In this document: positions 568 through 21,357 of the stretch, one piece after another
Layout of the letters: each line of letters begins with the position of its first letter
Position numbering within the stretch: position 1 is the stretch's first letter
Virus record (IMG/VR): IMGVR_UViG_3300023251_000011
Coordinates: 1 to 31,037 of that record
From: a virus
Direction: 5' to 3' (one strand)
DNA: 31,037 nt
Notes under the pieces: generated by a model
The model's input: only the letters and a program-made list of their open reading frames with translations
Told to the model about the DNA's origin: nothing
Database searches by the model: none
Program-made: the position numbers and the translations under genes

Positions 568-734
568 AAAGGCCAATATTTGACGCATACGACCGCGAGA
601 CGCTAAGGCTACACCGAGAGAGCCGCCCGACATTATCGGGCGCTTTGCTCGAGTTAAATCTTTCGGGCCTCAGACTAAAGAGAGAAATTTGCGGGCTTTT
701 ATTAATGATTCATAAAATACTTATAGGCGAATGA
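564..734 (+). CDS. small hypothetical protein (56 aa)
   Basis: This 56-residue frame starts at ATG 564 (ATGA overlap with the preceding stop) and ends with TGA 732-734. That stop overlaps the helicase ATG at 731, again as ATGA. Start and stop both fit the operon's translational coupling pattern, which is the main reason to call it. The protein begins MKRPIFDAYDRETLRLHRES and is basic, with a Leu-rich second half (LLELNLSGLRLKREICGLLL). A similar small gene often lies just upstream of a phage helicase; no function can be assigned. Confidence 0.65.
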   Translation: MKRPIFDAYDRETLRLHRESRPTLSGALLELNLSGLRLKREICGLLLMIHKILIGE

Positions 735-2191
735 AGCTAAGACCATACCAACAAGAAAGCAAAGACCTTTCGAGACAATTATATCGCGAAGGTCATAGGC
801 GTGTAATGCTATGCAAGCCCACAGGATCGGGCAAGACTGTCACTTTTGCCTCTATTGCTTCGGACGCCGTAGCTATGGGCTCGAGGGCGGCGATCGTTGT
901 CGATAGAAAAGAACTACTCGAGCAAGCGGTCGAAAAGTTGAAAATGTACGGGCTAAACCCTCAGATTATTAGAGGCAAGAACCGCGTAAACTATCAAAAT
1001 AAGTGTTTTGTTGCGACCGTTCAGACTCTAATTAACAGACAACAATTAGATTTAAACCTCTTGATTATTGACGAGGCGCACAAACAAACTTTCGATAAGT
1101 TGCTCGCTCTTGACGCTTATAAAAGAACCTTTGTAATAGGGGCCACCGCGACACCTATGCGAACGGGCCGAATGAAACAACTCTCTGACAATTACACGGC
1201 CATGATTGAGCCGGTAACTATTAGCGAGCTAATTGCTGACGGGTTTCTCGTGCCGGCGATAACCTTCGCCGCTAAGTCTGGCGGGGCCGACATGTCAGAC
1301 GTAAAAACAAAGCTTGGCGACTTTGAAAAAAAGGCCATGTTTGACGCTTTCAACAAAGCGCCACTTTATGCCGGAGTAGTTGAGCAGTATAAAAAATTCA
1401 GTTATAACGAGCGAGCGATTTGCTTTAATATTAATGTCGAGCACTCCAAGAAGACCGCGCAAGCTTTCGAGGCGGCCGGAGTTAGCGCAAGGCATTGTGA
1501 CGGGTCTATGACTGAAAAGGAAAGGGCCATGACTTTAAAGGAGTGGCGCATGGGTCTGTTTTTAGTTCTTTGCAATTGTGACCTCTTTACTACGGGCTTT
1601 GACGAGCCAACGATTAGAACGGTAATTGTAAACCGTGCAACTCAATCGGTGCCCTTATGGCTGCAAATGTGCGGCCGTGGTTCTCGGCCCTCGGAGGGCA
1701 AAGGCGAGTTTAATATTATAGACATGGGCGCGAATATTTACCGGCTTGGGTTCTGGGAGCAAGAGCGAAAATATAACCTTACTCACGAATACAAAAAAAG
1801 CAAAGGCGAGGCTCCTGTAAAAGAGTGCGATCCTACGGTCGGCGATGTTAACGGCTTAACGGGTTGCGGGGCCGTTGTGCCCGCCTCGTCAACCGCTTGT
1901 AAGCATTGCGGCTTCGTTTTTCCTATCAAGAAAAAAAAACTAATTGTCGGCGATTTCGGGCAAGTTACAAACGACACGAACGCTTTGCCGGAGCACCTTG
2001 CGAATAAAAAGTATAAGTCGATGAGCCTTTCAGATCTCGATGAGGTTCGCCAGATAAGAAAGTATAATCTCGGTTGGTTAGTACGTCAAGTAGCAACGCG
2101 CTCAGACCTCAGCCTCGAGCAATTACAAGAGTTTAAAGGGTACAAAAAAAGTTGGGTCGAAGTGACTAAAAAGCGCCTCGGCCTTAATTAA
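731..2191 (+). CDS. SF2 DEAD/DEAH-box helicase with C-terminal zinc motif
   Basis: This is an ATP-dependent superfamily 2 helicase, probably acting in phage DNA replication or recombination. Visible motifs are a Q-like N-terminus (LRPYQ, residues 3-7), Walker A KPTGSGKT (29-36), DEAH (114-117), motif III GATATP (137-142), TTGFDEP (287-293) and motif VI MCGRGSRP (313-320). These define two RecA-like domains (about 1-170 and 200-345). A C-terminal extension carries C366, C379, C390 and C393 (CKHCGF), a likely zinc-binding ribbon. At 486 residues its size is normal for compact phage RecG/RAD25/UvsW-like helicases. ATG 731 couples to the preceding gene by ATGA. Family assignment is secure; the exact role (origin melting, branch migration or repair) is inferred. 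Confidence 0.93.
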   Translation: MKLRPYQQESKDLSRQLYREGHRRVMLCKPTGSGKTVTFASIASDAVAMGSRAAIVVDRKELLEQAVEKLKMYGLNPQIIRGKNRVNYQNKCFVATVQTLINRQQLDLNLLIIDEAHKQTFDKLLALDAYKRTFVIGATATPMRTGRMKQLSDNYTAMIEPVTISELIADGFLVPAITFAAKSGGADMSDVKTKLGDFEKKAMFDAFNKAPLYAGVVEQYKKFSYNERAICFNINVEHSKKTAQAFEAAGVSARHCDGSMTEKERAMTLKEWRMGLFLVLCNCDLFTTGFDEPTIRTVIVNRATQSVPLWLQMCGRGSRPSEGKGEFNIIDMGANIYRLGFWEQERKYNLTHEYKKSKGEAPVKECDPTVGDVNGLTGCGAVVPASSTACKHCGFVFPIKKKKLIVGDFGQVTNDTNALPEHLANKKYKSMSLSDLDEVRQIRKYNLGWLVRQVATRSDLSLEQLQEFKGYKKSWVEVTKKRLGLN

Positions 2192-2210
2192 AAACCAAAA
2201 CAAATCACAA

Positions 2211-2444
2211 ATGAGCGAAACTAAGAAAATGACCAGAGCAGCAAAAGACCGCCTCGCGCTAAAGACAATTGACAAAATAGACACCTTCACCAAAGAAGTT
2301 GGCAAGCTCGACCGATTCGACTTTGACGGTCATAAAAAGCTAGTTGAAGGCGTAGGCGATATTTTAGGCCGAATAGCTGACGGCGCTTTTAAGGCGGGGC
2401 AAGAAGATCAAAAGGCTAAGGGTTTCACCTTTAATAAAAACTAA
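2211..2444 (+). CDS. hypothetical protein (77 aa)
   Basis: Unrecognised. This 77-residue protein is Lys- and Asp-rich and predicted mostly helical (for example KTIDKIDTFTKEVGKLDRF). It has no membrane segment. The ATG is preceded by an A/C-rich leader (AAAACCAAAACAAATCACAA), of the type seen before several early genes here. It lies between the helicase and the primase-helicase, so a DNA-associated accessory role is possible but not shown. Confidence 0.7.
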   Translation: MSETKKMTRAAKDRLALKTIDKIDTFTKEVGKLDRFDFDGHKKLVEGVGDILGRIADGAFKAGQEDQKAKGFTFNKN

Positions 2445-2445
2445 A

Positions 2446-2661
2446 ATGAAAAATAGAGTTATAGCATACATAAAAGCAAAGCATAGCCTCGACCTAGTAA
2501 CGGCGAGCCTCATCTCTGGCGATTCAAAAAATGCCGTTGTCGAGGTTATAAGTCAAGACGTACTTAACGAGTTAGGTTTTGGCGCTGAGCGTTTCGAAAT
2601 AGAGACAGGGATCCAAATAAACGATTTAGTAAAAGGAATTTTCGAAATACTTGCCGACTAA
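2446..2661 (+). CDS. hypothetical protein (71 aa)
   Basis: Unrecognised acidic protein of 71 residues, starting one base after the preceding stop (TAAAATG). Its stop TAA overlaps the ATG of the following gene (TAATG, 2659-2663). It looks like a small soluble alpha/beta protein (MKNRVIAYIKAKHSLDLVTA at the N-terminus). The tight spacing on both sides supports expression as part of the early operon. Confidence 0.65.
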   Translation: MKNRVIAYIKAKHSLDLVTASLISGDSKNAVVEVISQDVLNELGFGAERFEIETGIQINDLVKGIFEILAD

Positions 2662-2870
2662 TGGAAAACCCCTATTTTATAAAGCACCGGCAAGAACTAA
2701 GGCCGAGACGTATCGAGCGAATAGCTGACGGCAAGCTCAAGGCCCGAAAATTAGCTTTAAAAGATCAAGATCTCGTTGCCGTTCCAACAACAGAAACCGC
2801 CTTAAAATTCCTTTCAACGATGGGCGACCCTTTAGCTTCACAAATTCAATCTTTAGAAGATGTCGAATAG
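2661..2870 (+). CDS. hypothetical protein (69 aa)
   Basis: Unrecognised. The N-terminal half is strongly basic (for example RHRQELRPRRIERIADGK is approximately its charge pattern) and the C-terminus is acidic. The first base overlaps the previous stop, and the last eleven bases overlap the next gene, whose ATG is at 2860. A nucleic-acid-binding role would fit the charge and neighbours but is only a guess. Confidence 0.6.
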   Translation: MENPYFIKHRQELRPRRIERIADGKLKARKLALKDQDLVAVPTTETALKFLSTMGDPLASQIQSLEDVE

Positions 2871-3282
2871 TATAAAAAAAGAAGGCCCTTTGTACGACCT
2901 TTGCCTCAGCAAAAACAAAAGAGGGCTTTGCGCCGTCAAGTTTTGCAGAGGCAGAAAAGTCGAAAATAAACGAATTTGCAGCAAATGTTGTAAAAGAAGG
3001 CGTAAAATAAACGACCCTATAGGGTATGCCTATGGAGTAACTAAGCAGAACGCCAAAAGGCGCGGCAAGGTTTTCACTATTACCTTAGAGTATTTTACAG
3101 AGTTTTGTTTAAAAACCGGATATATTGAAAAAAAAGGCCGCAAGCCAAATAGCCTAAGTATTGACAGAATAAACCCCGATTTCGGATATATAAATGGAAA
3201 TATTAGAGCTATGACCTACGGGCTAAATTCTGGGCGCACTCAAGACGATGAGAAACACGACCCGAACCCTTGCACTTTTTAA
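2860..3282 (+). CDS. HNH/treble-clef endonuclease-like protein
   Basis: The 140-residue protein has cysteines C24 and C29 and then C40, C43 and C44 (RICSKCC), followed by an Arg/Lys patch. At 99-123 it carries SIDRINPDFGYINGNIRAM...N. The D-R-I ... G-Y ... G-N-I-R ... N pattern is characteristic of phage HNH endonucleases with treble-clef zinc sites, where a D/E-H-I-D/N core is followed by GY..GN....N. The usual catalytic His is replaced (SIDRI), as in several phage HNH variants, so activity is uncertain. It sits immediately before the primase-helicase. It could be a homing-type or recombination endonuclease, or a structural zinc protein. Fold assignment is fairly good; catalysis is inferred. 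Confidence 0.68.
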   Translation: MSNSIKKEGPLYDLCLSKNKRGLCAVKFCRGRKVENKRICSKCCKRRRKINDPIGYAYGVTKQNAKRRGKVFTITLEYFTEFCLKTGYIEKKGRKPNSLSIDRINPDFGYINGNIRAMTYGLNSGRTQDDEKHDPNPCTF

Positions 3283-16039: not shown

Positions 16040-17194
16040 ATGGACTTGCAATATGTAGAAAATTTTACAGGTGGTACCGTTGTCATGCTAGTGTATGGTG
16101 AGATAGGAGGCGAGAAAGGCGTCAACGGTGCGCAATTTGCTCAAGTTATTCAATACTTGCAAGGCGATCCGGAGGTCTTAGATATAGAGGTGAGGGTAAA
16201 CTCTCACGGTGGCGGCGTTCTTGACGCCCTCAATATATTCAACGCGATTAGAGGCTCAAAAAAACCATGTAGAACGATAATTGACGGCATTGCCGCAAGT
16301 TCTGGCGGGTTGGTAGCTATGGCCGGACATACTCGAGCGATTAATGACTTTGGCCGCTTAATGGTACACGCTCCAAGCGTGCCAGACAAGGCAAAAGAGA
16401 CTTTAAACGAAAACACCGTTAAAATGCTCGATCAATTTCAAGATTTGATTGCCGACTTATTGACGGCCAACTCGAAACACGAAAAGAGCGAAGTCGTGAC
16501 CATGATAAACGGCGAAACATGGTTTAATGCAAATCAAGCCCTCGAGGCGGGTTTTGTTGACGAGGTTATCAATACAGGCCGACAATTTGACGAGGTTTTC
16601 AACGGCCTCGACTTCGAAACTAGCGAGCTTAGCCTCGTTGTAAATAATTTTAATAGGAACCCTAAAAACATCATAAAGATGAAACTAGTAAAAAATACGC
16701 TCGGGCTTGACGAGAACGTCAGCGAGCAAGTGGTAAATGAAACAATCGCAACGATTGTAAACGAGAAAGCCACGGCCGACAAGGCCCTCGAGACTGAGCA
16801 AAAATTGCACGGCGAAACGAAAACGGCACTAAAGACGGCAACGGATAAAGTGACTGAGATTAACAACTCGGCGGCGGTTTCTTTTGTTGAGAACGCTATA
16901 AAAGAGGGCAAATTTGCACCAGAGGCAAAAGAAGCGCTTATCTCTCAAGCTAAAAACGACCTAAAAGGGTTTAAAACTCTTTGTGAGTCTATGGCGACAC
17001 CCGCGAAAAAAATCACGGATAAAATAGACACTAAAGGAGACGCTAAGGCGGGCGAAGTTGTCAACGGAAAGCTTGACGGTAAAACTTTTAGAGAGCTTGA
17101 AAAGTCAAGTCCTCAAGTTATCGTTGACCTTTTGGCTAACGATCCAGAAAAGCACGCGGCTCTATTCGCTGCTCAGTACCCAAACGCGAAATAA
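16040..17194 (+). CDS. ClpP-like head maturation protease with C-terminal scaffold
   Basis: Residues 1-180 are a ClpP/S14-like prohead protease: VRVNSHGGGVLDALNIFNAI (51-70), nucleophile S87 in GIAASSGG (83-90), H110 in RLMVHAPS and D174 in AGFVDEV. Residues about 210-384 are a charged, helical, coiled-coil-like tail (KATADKALETEQKLHGETK) typical of scaffolding. An internal Met214 in an A-rich context (CATAAAGATGAAA, ATG 16679) could start a separate scaffold of about 171 residues, as Mu does with its I/Z pair. The capsid gene follows directly. Protease call firm; internal start inferred. Confidence 0.9.
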   Translation: MDLQYVENFTGGTVVMLVYGEIGGEKGVNGAQFAQVIQYLQGDPEVLDIEVRVNSHGGGVLDALNIFNAIRGSKKPCRTIIDGIAASSGGLVAMAGHTRAINDFGRLMVHAPSVPDKAKETLNENTVKMLDQFQDLIADLLTANSKHEKSEVVTMINGETWFNANQALEAGFVDEVINTGRQFDEVFNGLDFETSELSLVVNNFNRNPKNIIKMKLVKNTLGLDENVSEQVVNETIATIVNEKATADKALETEQKLHGETKTALKTATDKVTEINNSAAVSFVENAIKEGKFAPEAKEALISQAKNDLKGFKTLCESMATPAKKITDKIDTKGDAKAGEVVNGKLDGKTFRELEKSSPQVIVDLLANDPEKHAALFAAQYPNAK

Positions 17195-19140: not shown

Positions 19141-20316
19141 ATGAATGATGTAATTTTTACAAGAGGAAACGGGGCACTAGGCCGACCGTTGGCAACTCGT
19201 GACCATGTCAGCGCGATTTGTATGCCTGTCCCAGACGCTAATTTACCGGCGGGAATCACTACGACTGACAGAATAAAATTAATTTATTCAGTCGCGGACG
19301 CTGAGGCTTTGGGTATTTTATTGAGTGCTACCAATTTAACACATGCGCACTATCAAATAAGCGAGGTTTTTAGGCTTAACCCAAAGGCCGAGTTGTACGT
19401 TTATCTTTATGACTCAACGGCCTCAACGGCGGCGGTTTATTTGCAGCCTGTTATCGAGTTTCCAGAAAACGGCGAAATTAGAAATGTCGCTATATTTAAA
19501 GATGATGCAATCGCGAGCGCTGACGTTTTAGACGTTCAAAGCGTAGTAACGGCAATGCGAGCAGTACACCGACCTTTCTCGGCAATTGTAGGCTTTTCAG
19601 CTTATGGAGCTTCTAACGATTGGAGCACCGCGCTAGATTTGAGATCTTTAAACGCTGACGCGGTCGGGGTTGTTATTGGTGGCGATGGTTCGGGCTTAGG
19701 CTTTAACTTAGCGACAACAGACAACAATATACCGGCAATAGGCGCGGTTTTGGGGGCAACCTCTAAGGCGGGCGTGCATGAGTCTATTGCTTACGTTGCA
19801 AAGTTCAACTTTAGCAATGGGCTCGAGCTTGAAAAAACAGTTATCGGAGACAAGAGCAACCTCGTCAACGATCAAACTGAGGTTTTATTGACGGCTTTAA
19901 CTGCTAAAGGTTACATTTTCTTTAGGAAGCACATGGGAATAACAGGATCGTACATAAACGACTCATCTAACGCGGTCGCTATTACTTCGGACTATGCTTA
20001 TGGCGAGAACACCAGAACGATAGATAAGGCAATTAGAGGGGTTAGAACCTTTCTACTACCTCAGCTTGCAAGTCCGGTCTATTTGAACAATGACGGCACT
20101 ATGAGAGAGGACACCGTTGCAAATTTCAGAGCTTTAGCACTTAGATCGCTTGATCAAATGCAACAAGCGGGCGAAATTTCAGCGAGAGAGGTCACAATCG
20201 ACCCGACTCAACCGGTATTAAGTACGAGCAAACTAGTTATAGGTGTAAAAATTGTGCCCGTAGGAGTTGCCAGAAATATAGAAGTTAATATTGCTTTCGC
20301 TTTGAAAGTTAGCTAA
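19141..20316 (+). CDS. contractile tail sheath protein (DUF2586-like)
   Basis: This 391-residue protein matches the DUF2586 family that fills the sheath position in Bacteroidetes Mu-like phages. It has an N-terminal MNDVIFTRGNGALGRPLATR, a central domain with KAELYVYLYDS and AVHRPFSAIVGFSAYG, and a C-terminal part with YGENTRTIDKAIRGVRTFLL, an R-T-I-D-K-A-x-R sheath-like segment. The adjacent tail tube gene, tape measure and gpD/J-type baseplate genes confirm a contractile tail. Assignment from family pattern and synteny. Confidence 0.85.
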   Translation: MNDVIFTRGNGALGRPLATRDHVSAICMPVPDANLPAGITTTDRIKLIYSVADAEALGILLSATNLTHAHYQISEVFRLNPKAELYVYLYDSTASTAAVYLQPVIEFPENGEIRNVAIFKDDAIASADVLDVQSVVTAMRAVHRPFSAIVGFSAYGASNDWSTALDLRSLNADAVGVVIGGDGSGLGFNLATTDNNIPAIGAVLGATSKAGVHESIAYVAKFNFSNGLELEKTVIGDKSNLVNDQTEVLLTALTAKGYIFFRKHMGITGSYINDSSNAVAITSDYAYGENTRTIDKAIRGVRTFLLPQLASPVYLNNDGTMREDTVANFRALALRSLDQMQQAGEISAREVTIDPTQPVLSTSKLVIGVKIVPVGVARNIEVNIAFALKVS

Positions 20317-20335: not shown

Positions 20336-20761
20336 ATGCCAGTAAACAATACACCTTTAATAAATGGGCGCGCGTATGACTTCGCTCAAATTGTCGTTAA
20401 TGTTCTTGGAGTGCCTTTGATGGGTATTTCGAGCGTAACATATAGCGAAGAGCAAGAGAAAACAAACAACTACGGGGCCGGCAAGTATGCCGTTTCGCGT
20501 GGTCATGGAGCGGTCGAGGCGAGCGCGTCTTTTGACATTCACATGAATGACATAGAAGCGCTAAGAGACGCGGCACCCCTTGGGCGTCTGTTGGATATAC
20601 CGCCCTTTGATATTCCTATCACTTTTTTAAACGCTAACAAGGTTGTGACTCACACTTTGAAAAATTGCGAGTTCACTAATGACGGGGTCGAAGCCTCACA
20701 GGGAGACACTCAAGTACAAAGGTCTTTTGATCTAGTTATCTCACATGTAGAGTATCGTTAA
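20336..20761 (+). CDS. tail tube protein
   Basis: A 141-residue beta-rich protein directly after the sheath, the usual place for the tube subunit. Features fitting tube proteins are the early INGRAYDFAQIVVNVLG strand pair, a loop with NNYGAGKYAVSRGHG, and a final strand FDLVISHVEYR. The sequence TFLNANKVVTHTLKNCEFTN is like the conserved core beta-hairpin. It is followed by a short gap holding a promoter-like element. Confidence 0.8.
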   Translation: MPVNNTPLINGRAYDFAQIVVNVLGVPLMGISSVTYSEEQEKTNNYGAGKYAVSRGHGAVEASASFDIHMNDIEALRDAAPLGRLLDIPPFDIPITFLNANKVVTHTLKNCEFTNDGVEASQGDTQVQRSFDLVISHVEYR

Positions 20762-20779: not shown

Positions 20780-20787
20780 TATATTTG
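20780..20787 (+). promoter_or_regulatory. TATATTTG, Bacteroidetes-type -7 element
   Basis: TATATTTG exactly matches the TAnnTTTG -7 consensus of Bacteroidetes primary sigma factors. It lies 28 bases before the chaperone ATG, which would give a short A-rich leader. The nearest TTG (20765-20767) is only 12 bases upstream, shorter than the usual -33 spacing, so the -33 element is weak or absent. It could drive the tail tape measure/baseplate operon. Confidence 0.45.
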
Positions 20788-20815: not shown

Positions 20816-21157
20816 ATGTCAGACGACAAAAAAGAAAACGGCGCCGCAACTTCTAAAGAGGGCGCGGCGTCTTTGGTTCCTGTTGGTGCAAAATTTGAGA
20901 TCACTCTCGAGGACGGCGAAAAAATGTATTTAAGAGCTATTAATCGCCAACAGTTAGGTATTGTATTAAGCTTAATAATGCCGAGCTCTGGGCAACCCGA
21001 TTACATAAGAGCGGGCGAGGTTATTCTTGAAAATTGCGCCATAAAAGACGCGGGCGACTTTGCAGCAATAAAAGCTGACGAAATGCTTTTCGTTGGGGCT
21101 TGTTTTCAAGCGTTTCAATTGATAGAGTTAAAAACCGGAGTTATAAAAAAGCTCTAA
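20816..21157 (+). CDS. tail assembly chaperone, short form (gpG-like)
   Basis: A 113-residue acidic protein between tube and tape measure genes, the position of lambda G/GT-type chaperones that coat the tape measure during tail assembly. The N-terminus is low-complexity (KKENGAATSKEGAASLVPVG), then FEITLEDGEKMYLRAINRQQ and a helical core. The last sense codons are GTT ATA AAA AAG CTC TAA. The heptamer A AAA AAG there is in the correct phase for -1 slippage into the open frame downstream, which makes the longer form. Assignment rests on context plus the frameshift. Confidence 0.8.
   Translation: MSDDKKENGAATSKEGAASLVPVGAKFEITLEDGEKMYLRAINRQQLGIVLSLIMPSSGQPDYIRAGEVILENCAIKDAGDFAAIKADEMLFVGACFQAFQLIELKTGVIKKL
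21145..21151 (+). other. programmed -1 frameshift slippery site A AAA AAG
   Basis: The heptamer AAAAAAG is phased X XXY YYZ in the chaperone frame: ATA (21143), AAA (21146), AAG (21149), two codons before the stop at 21155-21157. Slippage puts the ribosome in the frame that is open to 21357. A small CGAC-TACTTG-GTCG hairpin (21165-21178) lies 13 bases downstream and might stimulate it, though the stem is weak. Confidence 0.85.
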
Positions 21158-21357
21158 GCCGCAACGACTACTTGGTCGAGACAATTAAAAACATGGCGGC
21201 CCATGAAACGGCCAAAATAGAGGCCCTCATTCGGTTTCATTTTAAAATTGATGCGACACTCTTAACAGACGATGAGCTCGGGGCGGCATGGGGCGATTTA
21301 AAATTTGCCCTTGAGTATAATAAACTAATGACGGGCAACACTAACCCTTTAATGTAA
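21151..21357 (+). CDS. tail assembly chaperone, T part of the frameshift product
   Basis: In the -1 frame, reading continues GCT CTA AGC CGC (ALSRNDYLVETIKNMAAHE) for 68 residues to TAA 21355-21357. The full product, 112 residues of the short form plus 68, would be about 180 residues. This parallels the lambda G/GT pair, in which the T extension recruits the tail tube protein. The frame extends upstream to 21100 only as a spurious overlap. An in-frame ATG at 21192 could allow independent initiation but is less attractive. Confidence 0.75.
   Translation, partial: ALSRNDYLVETIKNMAAHETAKIEALIRFHFKIDATLLTDDELGAAWGDLKFALEYNKLMTGNTNPLM

Follow-up and report, generated by a model that had tools for sequence, protein, structure and literature searches.

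The tail assembly chaperone frameshift of phage lambda, with its products gpG and gpGT, and those of its relatives were treated by Xu, Hendrix and Duda (2004), to which we refer here as cited in PMC5009743. Mu has been reported to use -2 frameshifting (PMC5009743). Prokaryotic frameshift signals do not always come with a hairpin or a Shine-Dalgarno-like element, and in E. coli a slippery tetramer by itself causes little shifting unless a strong stimulator is present (PMC4066793). Here we analyse a stretch of 31,037 nucleotides (hereafter the window) from an uncultivated virus record, IMGVR_UViG_3300023251_000011 of IMG/VR. An earlier note had proposed that a gene upstream of the tape measure gene is extended by a programmed -1 frameshift. 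Judged by sequence comparison, the two overlapping frames very probably belong to one tail assembly chaperone gene whose translation involves a programmed -1 ribosomal frameshift.

Direct reading of the sequence bore out the positions, the phasing and the product sizes (113 and about 180 residues) of the earlier note, as well as the placement upstream of the tape measure gene with a five-base gap; the gene is also located downstream of the tail tube gene (Table 1). The 113-aa ORF ends with the codons GGA GTT ATA AAA AAG CTC TAA, in which the heptamer is in X_XXY_YYZ phase with frame 0 and is followed by a lone sense codon, CTC, and then the stop. If the ribosome slips by -1, reading restarts at GCT (21151) and ends at TAA (21355-21357), five bases before the tape measure ATG, which gives a fusion of 112 + 68 = 180 aa. 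The extension differs from that of a relative (L002) at 8, 6 and 31 first, second and third codon positions of the -1 frame, respectively, which is a coding pattern. Since the genes of the window contain seven in-frame copies of A_AAA_AAG in approximately 7,400 codons, the heptamer alone is little proof, and comparison with relatives therefore served as the test.

Table 1. Features of the tail module and the slip site, in window coordinates
Feature	Position	Strand	Basis
Tail sheath, DUF2586	19141..20316	+	domain and PHROGs matches
Tail tube protein	20336..20761	+	phrog_4579 'tail protein' 8e-17; same position in relatives
Putative frame-0 tail assembly chaperone (gpG analogue), 113 aa	20816..21157	+	phrog_19076 'unknown function', predicted fold
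Slippery heptamer A_AAA_AAG	21145..21151	+	sequence read; same distance from stop in relatives
Frame-0 stop TAA, second codon past heptamer	21155..21157	+	same spacing in relatives
-1 frame extension (T-like domain), 68 aa, probably joined to chaperone by frameshift	21151..21357	+	codon-position pattern, homologous extensions
Tape measure protein, 537 aa	21363..22976	+	Pfam TMP_3 9e-24, phrog_9959 8e-60

The window belongs to a contractile-tailed phage, with the gene order DUF2586 sheath, tail tube, chaperone gene, tape measure, DUF6046 and baseplate hub, and with a portal of the Portal_Mu family. The order tail tube, chaperone, tape measure is kept in relatives. Since the named hosts of these relatives are Bacteroidota, the host of the phage is probably a member of that phylum too. 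Rfam and tRNA scans of the window were empty. Upstream of the chaperone gene, TATATTTG at 20780-20787 corresponds to a -7 box of the Bacteroidota type (TAnnTTTG), conserved in the window, L002, L003 and L005, and this could possibly be a separate promoter for an operon of chaperone and tape measure.

Profile searches yielded a first set of 127 distinct loci, to which 15 loci from whole genomes and two hold-out sets (n=34 and n=27) were added, giving about 200 distinct relatives in all, from Bacteroidota phages and prophages and with complete isolate genomes among them. A first scan of genome contigs, with a profile of the window's closest relatives, confirmed no relative. Close homologues from IMG/VR (71-88% identity) keep heptamer, stop and extension, and heptamer and extension are common to five close relatives. 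Among the more diverged relatives are two Flavobacterium phages of the Winoviridae, lotta8-1 and FPSV-S1, and a gut phage. In nearly all of the approximately 200 relatives the slip site is found one codon before the frame-0 stop and is followed by a homologous -1 extension of about 51-74 aa (52-72 aa in nearly all loci of the first set). The extension is present in 34/34 loci of the first hold-out and, with two mis-anchored rows taken out, in 27/27 of the second. Conservation of the heptamer in relatives, which the earlier note had suggested as a check, goes well beyond what was expected. The site has the same distance from the stop even in relatives only 18-38% identical. Exceptions are the group without a frameshift that is treated below, L021, where the contig ends, L154, with a short extension of 40 aa, L063, where the stop of the extension is lost and the -1 frame from 3786 runs on into the tape measure, and L066, where near 2187 both the slip site (G_GAA_ACG) and the extension are broken. 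L321 and L323 were rejected as exceptions, being anchored on the stop of the preceding gene. The frame-0 stop is TAG in 73/127 family loci versus 64/686 other ORFs of the same loci; this preference may reflect a residue of the -1 frame or the termination context. A literature search, from which subscription papers were largely absent, found no report of this frameshift.

The heptamer itself varies. Among the 142 loci of the first set and the whole genomes we found A_AAA_AAG (44), G_GAA_AAG (28), A_AAA_AAA (14), G_GTA_AAG (10), A_AAA_AAC (9), G_GTA_AAC (9) and some less frequent forms. In about half of the relatives the P-site half deviates from X_XXY_YYZ and only the A_AAR half is kept, as in G_GAA_AAG and G_GTA_AAG. 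The tetramer Z_ZZN is retained in 132/142 loci, and in equally many X is identical to the base with which the P-site codon begins. In the hold-outs the tetramer is kept in 34/34 and in 24/29 rows (the 29 including the two mis-anchored ones); the rule for X is weaker in the first of them (24/34). On a quick tree of a short alignment, the class of slip site has switched at least about four times. The PRFect list includes a motif named 'twofour' (PMC10885494), which, on our reading of the name only, fits GGAAAA.

Synonymous positions around the slip site are under nucleotide-level selection. With expectations derived from each locus's own codon usage, and P-values that treat loci as independent, A is the last base of the preceding codon in all 58 loci with Lys as first slip codon (14.5 expected, P 3e-39), and that Lys is AAA in every one of them (31.8 expected). 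Where the second slip codon is Lys as well, it is AAG in 38/50 (22.8 expected). When only 26 cluster representatives are considered, these signals are still significant (about 1e-6 to 1e-5). The other classes show corresponding patterns: all 34 loci of the Glu class have G as the last base of the preceding codon (13.5 expected, P 5e-15), and in the Val class GTA is used in 25/25 (8.4 expected). In pairs at most 65% identical, both members use the same codon at the two slip positions in 95% and 77% of cases, versus about 49% at most other two-fold codons, and synonymous sites away from the slip codons are near saturation. The -1 frameshift inferred in the earlier note is therefore supported by the position of the site, by its conservation in relatives and by synonymous selection.

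The extension could instead be a separate small gene coupled to the chaperone gene, translated from a start of its own (TTG at 21100 or ATG at 21193). The overlap in the window does contain a TTG, and in GenBank NC_048829 the counterpart in lotta8-1 is annotated as a separate ORF, gp39. However, the -1 frame lacks ATG, GTG or TTG before position +12 from the stop in 118/127 loci and before +30 in 98/127; this scarcity of possible starts makes separate translation less likely, without disproving it. Moreover, extension residues ahead of the first possible start are conserved, with more differences at the third position of -1 frame codons (19/10/29), and independent translation does not explain the selection on the heptamer. 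We consider this alternative highly improbable.

Transcriptional rather than ribosomal slippage, on the run of six consecutive A at the window site, is more improbable still. A run of this length is short for slippage by the polymerase, the same extension is retained where the homologous site has no more than three or four A (G_GTA_AAG, G_GAA_AAG), and conservation tracks codon phase. A chance overlap, a sequencing error or a decayed gene, as might be suspected in an uncultivated viral contig and in view of the broken site and extension of L066, is essentially refuted by the relatives, since the same arrangement is found in about 200 loci, complete isolate genomes included.

Under programmed -1 ribosomal frameshifting, most ribosomes would stop at the frame-0 TAA and release the 113-aa chaperone, while a minority would move back by one base at A_AAA_AAG, where two tRNA-Lys would pair anew with AAA AAA, and produce the 180-aa fusion. 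For slippage in the host, for its efficiency and ratio and for what the two products do, we extrapolate from lambda (PMC5009743): by analogy with G/GT, the short form would coat the nascent tape measure protein and the extension would recruit tail tube subunits.

The chaperone belongs to a protein family that has no name. All 48 aligned members match phrog_19076, annotated as 'unknown function', and searches of Pfam, NCBIfam and PDB sequences gave nothing convincing and no fitting chaperone model; the extension gave one weak match in 48 against PHROGs. The predicted fold of the chaperone (pLDDT 85) has as its top three solved structures 3FGX (Z 6.9), 3KLU (YqbN, Z 4.1) and the HK97 tail chaperone 2OB9 (Z 2.9), and 2OB9 is also the top PDB match by Foldseek, at a weak E-value of 0.45. 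The model thus weakly resembles tail chaperones, and the name we use rests mainly on synteny and the frameshift.

Some members of the family differ in architecture. The genome G318 encodes a stand-alone chaperone homologue of 114 aa without -1 extension (L177, 9078-9422, minus strand) as well as a paralogue of 156 aa (16679-17149, minus strand) with chaperone domain and extension in one frame, with profile scores of 20 and 24 bits. A similar in-frame fusion is found in G208 (L167). This suggests that two genes instead of a frameshift can supply both products. The island of G318 is sheath-based, and neither of its chaperone genes has a tape measure gene beside it; sheath-based islands of this kind are also seen in L158-L162 and L167. 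L177 further encodes a tail-fibre-like protein of 843 aa (670-3201, minus strand), the C-terminal part of which looks, by eye, like an intein/Hint domain. In L007 (1923-2465), L008 (1926-2453), L030 and L155 the chaperone has about 175-199 aa; in L007 and L008 its domain appears to be duplicated in tandem, and the slip site follows the second copy.

Possible stimulators were studied at both sides of the heptamer. Upstream, 42/142 loci have AAGGAGG in the 36 nt that precede the stop, always at -24 to -18, seven nt before the heptamer; examples with the motif at codons -8 to -6 are L034, L037, L038, L042 and L044. Lys-Glu at codons -8 and -7 is written AAG.GAG in 43/71 cases (13.7 expected), as compared with 2/26 (4.1 expected) elsewhere in the same genes. 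Upon thinning, an excess of long Shine-Dalgarno matches persists, with z 4-7 below 65-70% identity and z of about 3 at 55-60%. The motif is found in 12/30 Bacteroidales genome loci and in 0/7 of Flavobacteriales. Shine-Dalgarno enrichment as a family-wide rule was rejected, because the first hold-out showed none (2 observed, 2.1 expected). In the hold-outs, full AAG.GAG was seen in 7/33 (4.8 expected, P 0.2) and GAG at -7 in 20/33 (12.2 expected, P 0.005). Since the signal, strong in the discovery set, was reproduced only in part, we regard AAGGAGG as a lead that would be limited to a clade, a Bacteroidales-rich subset. Presence of the element is not associated with non-canonical heptamers (Fisher P 0.37). 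The window lacks AAGGAGG; it only has GGAG four nt upstream of the heptamer (21137-21140), which is not conserved in L002-L005.

The motif is of note because ribosomes of Bacteroidia have been reported not to recognise Shine-Dalgarno sequences (PMC9976891), and yet prfB frameshift sites in Bacteroidia keep a strong Shine-Dalgarno-like sequence (PMC8710568). The phylum hardly uses such sequences for initiation (PMC8710568), and in the phage loci studied here they are rare before start codons (about 4-7%). A speculative scenario, which we hold to be rather unlikely, is that in the Bacteroidales-rich branch the internal AAGGAGG pairs with 16S rRNA and stimulates the -1 frameshift despite a sequestered anti-Shine-Dalgarno, such that the fusion ratio would follow bS21 occupancy of the ribosome, and that in the other branches slippage would depend mainly on the A_AAR half, full P-site re-pairing being dispensable.

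Downstream of the slip site, RNA structure showed no clear excess stability, with a mean z of about -0.6 or weaker in the three main classes, and no convincing conserved hairpin. In the window's own group neither a conserved downstream hairpin nor a conserved upstream Shine-Dalgarno-like element was found; in a consensus fold computed from five relatives, the covariation term is positive, hence unfavourable.

Frameshifted chaperones are already well known in other phages and the window is an ordinary, well-supported further case. Here the arrangement recurs across an unnamed gene family, in about 200 relatives and with unexpected variations that carry the main interest. The finding points to a function for phrog_19076, which so far has none, and shows that many phages and prophages of Bacteroidota carry an extension of 50-70 residues that was missed or split off in the two annotated isolates. 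The family also forms a natural experiment: A_AAA can be compared with G_GAA and G_GTA for the rules of slippery sites, and one can ask whether Shine-Dalgarno pairing is open to Bacteroidia ribosomes in elongation, a puzzle already posed by prfB.

As in lambda G/GT, the gene is located between major tail protein and tape measure, appears to specify a short chaperone and a -1 extended fusion, and has its slip site close to the end of the first ORF; unlike lambda, the heptamer is A_AAA_AAG and the chaperone lacks detectable sequence similarity to named chaperone families. With Mu the window has its portal family in common, but the -2 shift reported there differs from the -1 shift proposed here. 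The E. coli dnaX and IS-type -1 cassettes have the same A_AAA_AAG slip site, and some relatives, though not the window, display a dnaX-like layout with AAGGAGG seven nt upstream of the heptamer; in contrast to dnaX, neither a Shine-Dalgarno-like element nor a conserved hairpin is established in the window. The prfB frameshift of Bacteroidia (PMC8710568) has a strong Shine-Dalgarno-like sequence at its site, as do some relatives, but it is a +1 shift in a host gene that serves release-factor autoregulation. In lotta8-1 and FPSV-S1 a homologous chaperone gene with A_AAA_AAG is followed by a -1 extension and the tape measure, as in the window, whereas their chaperones, of 175-180 aa, look like a tandem domain duplication and the fusion is absent from the annotation of their records.
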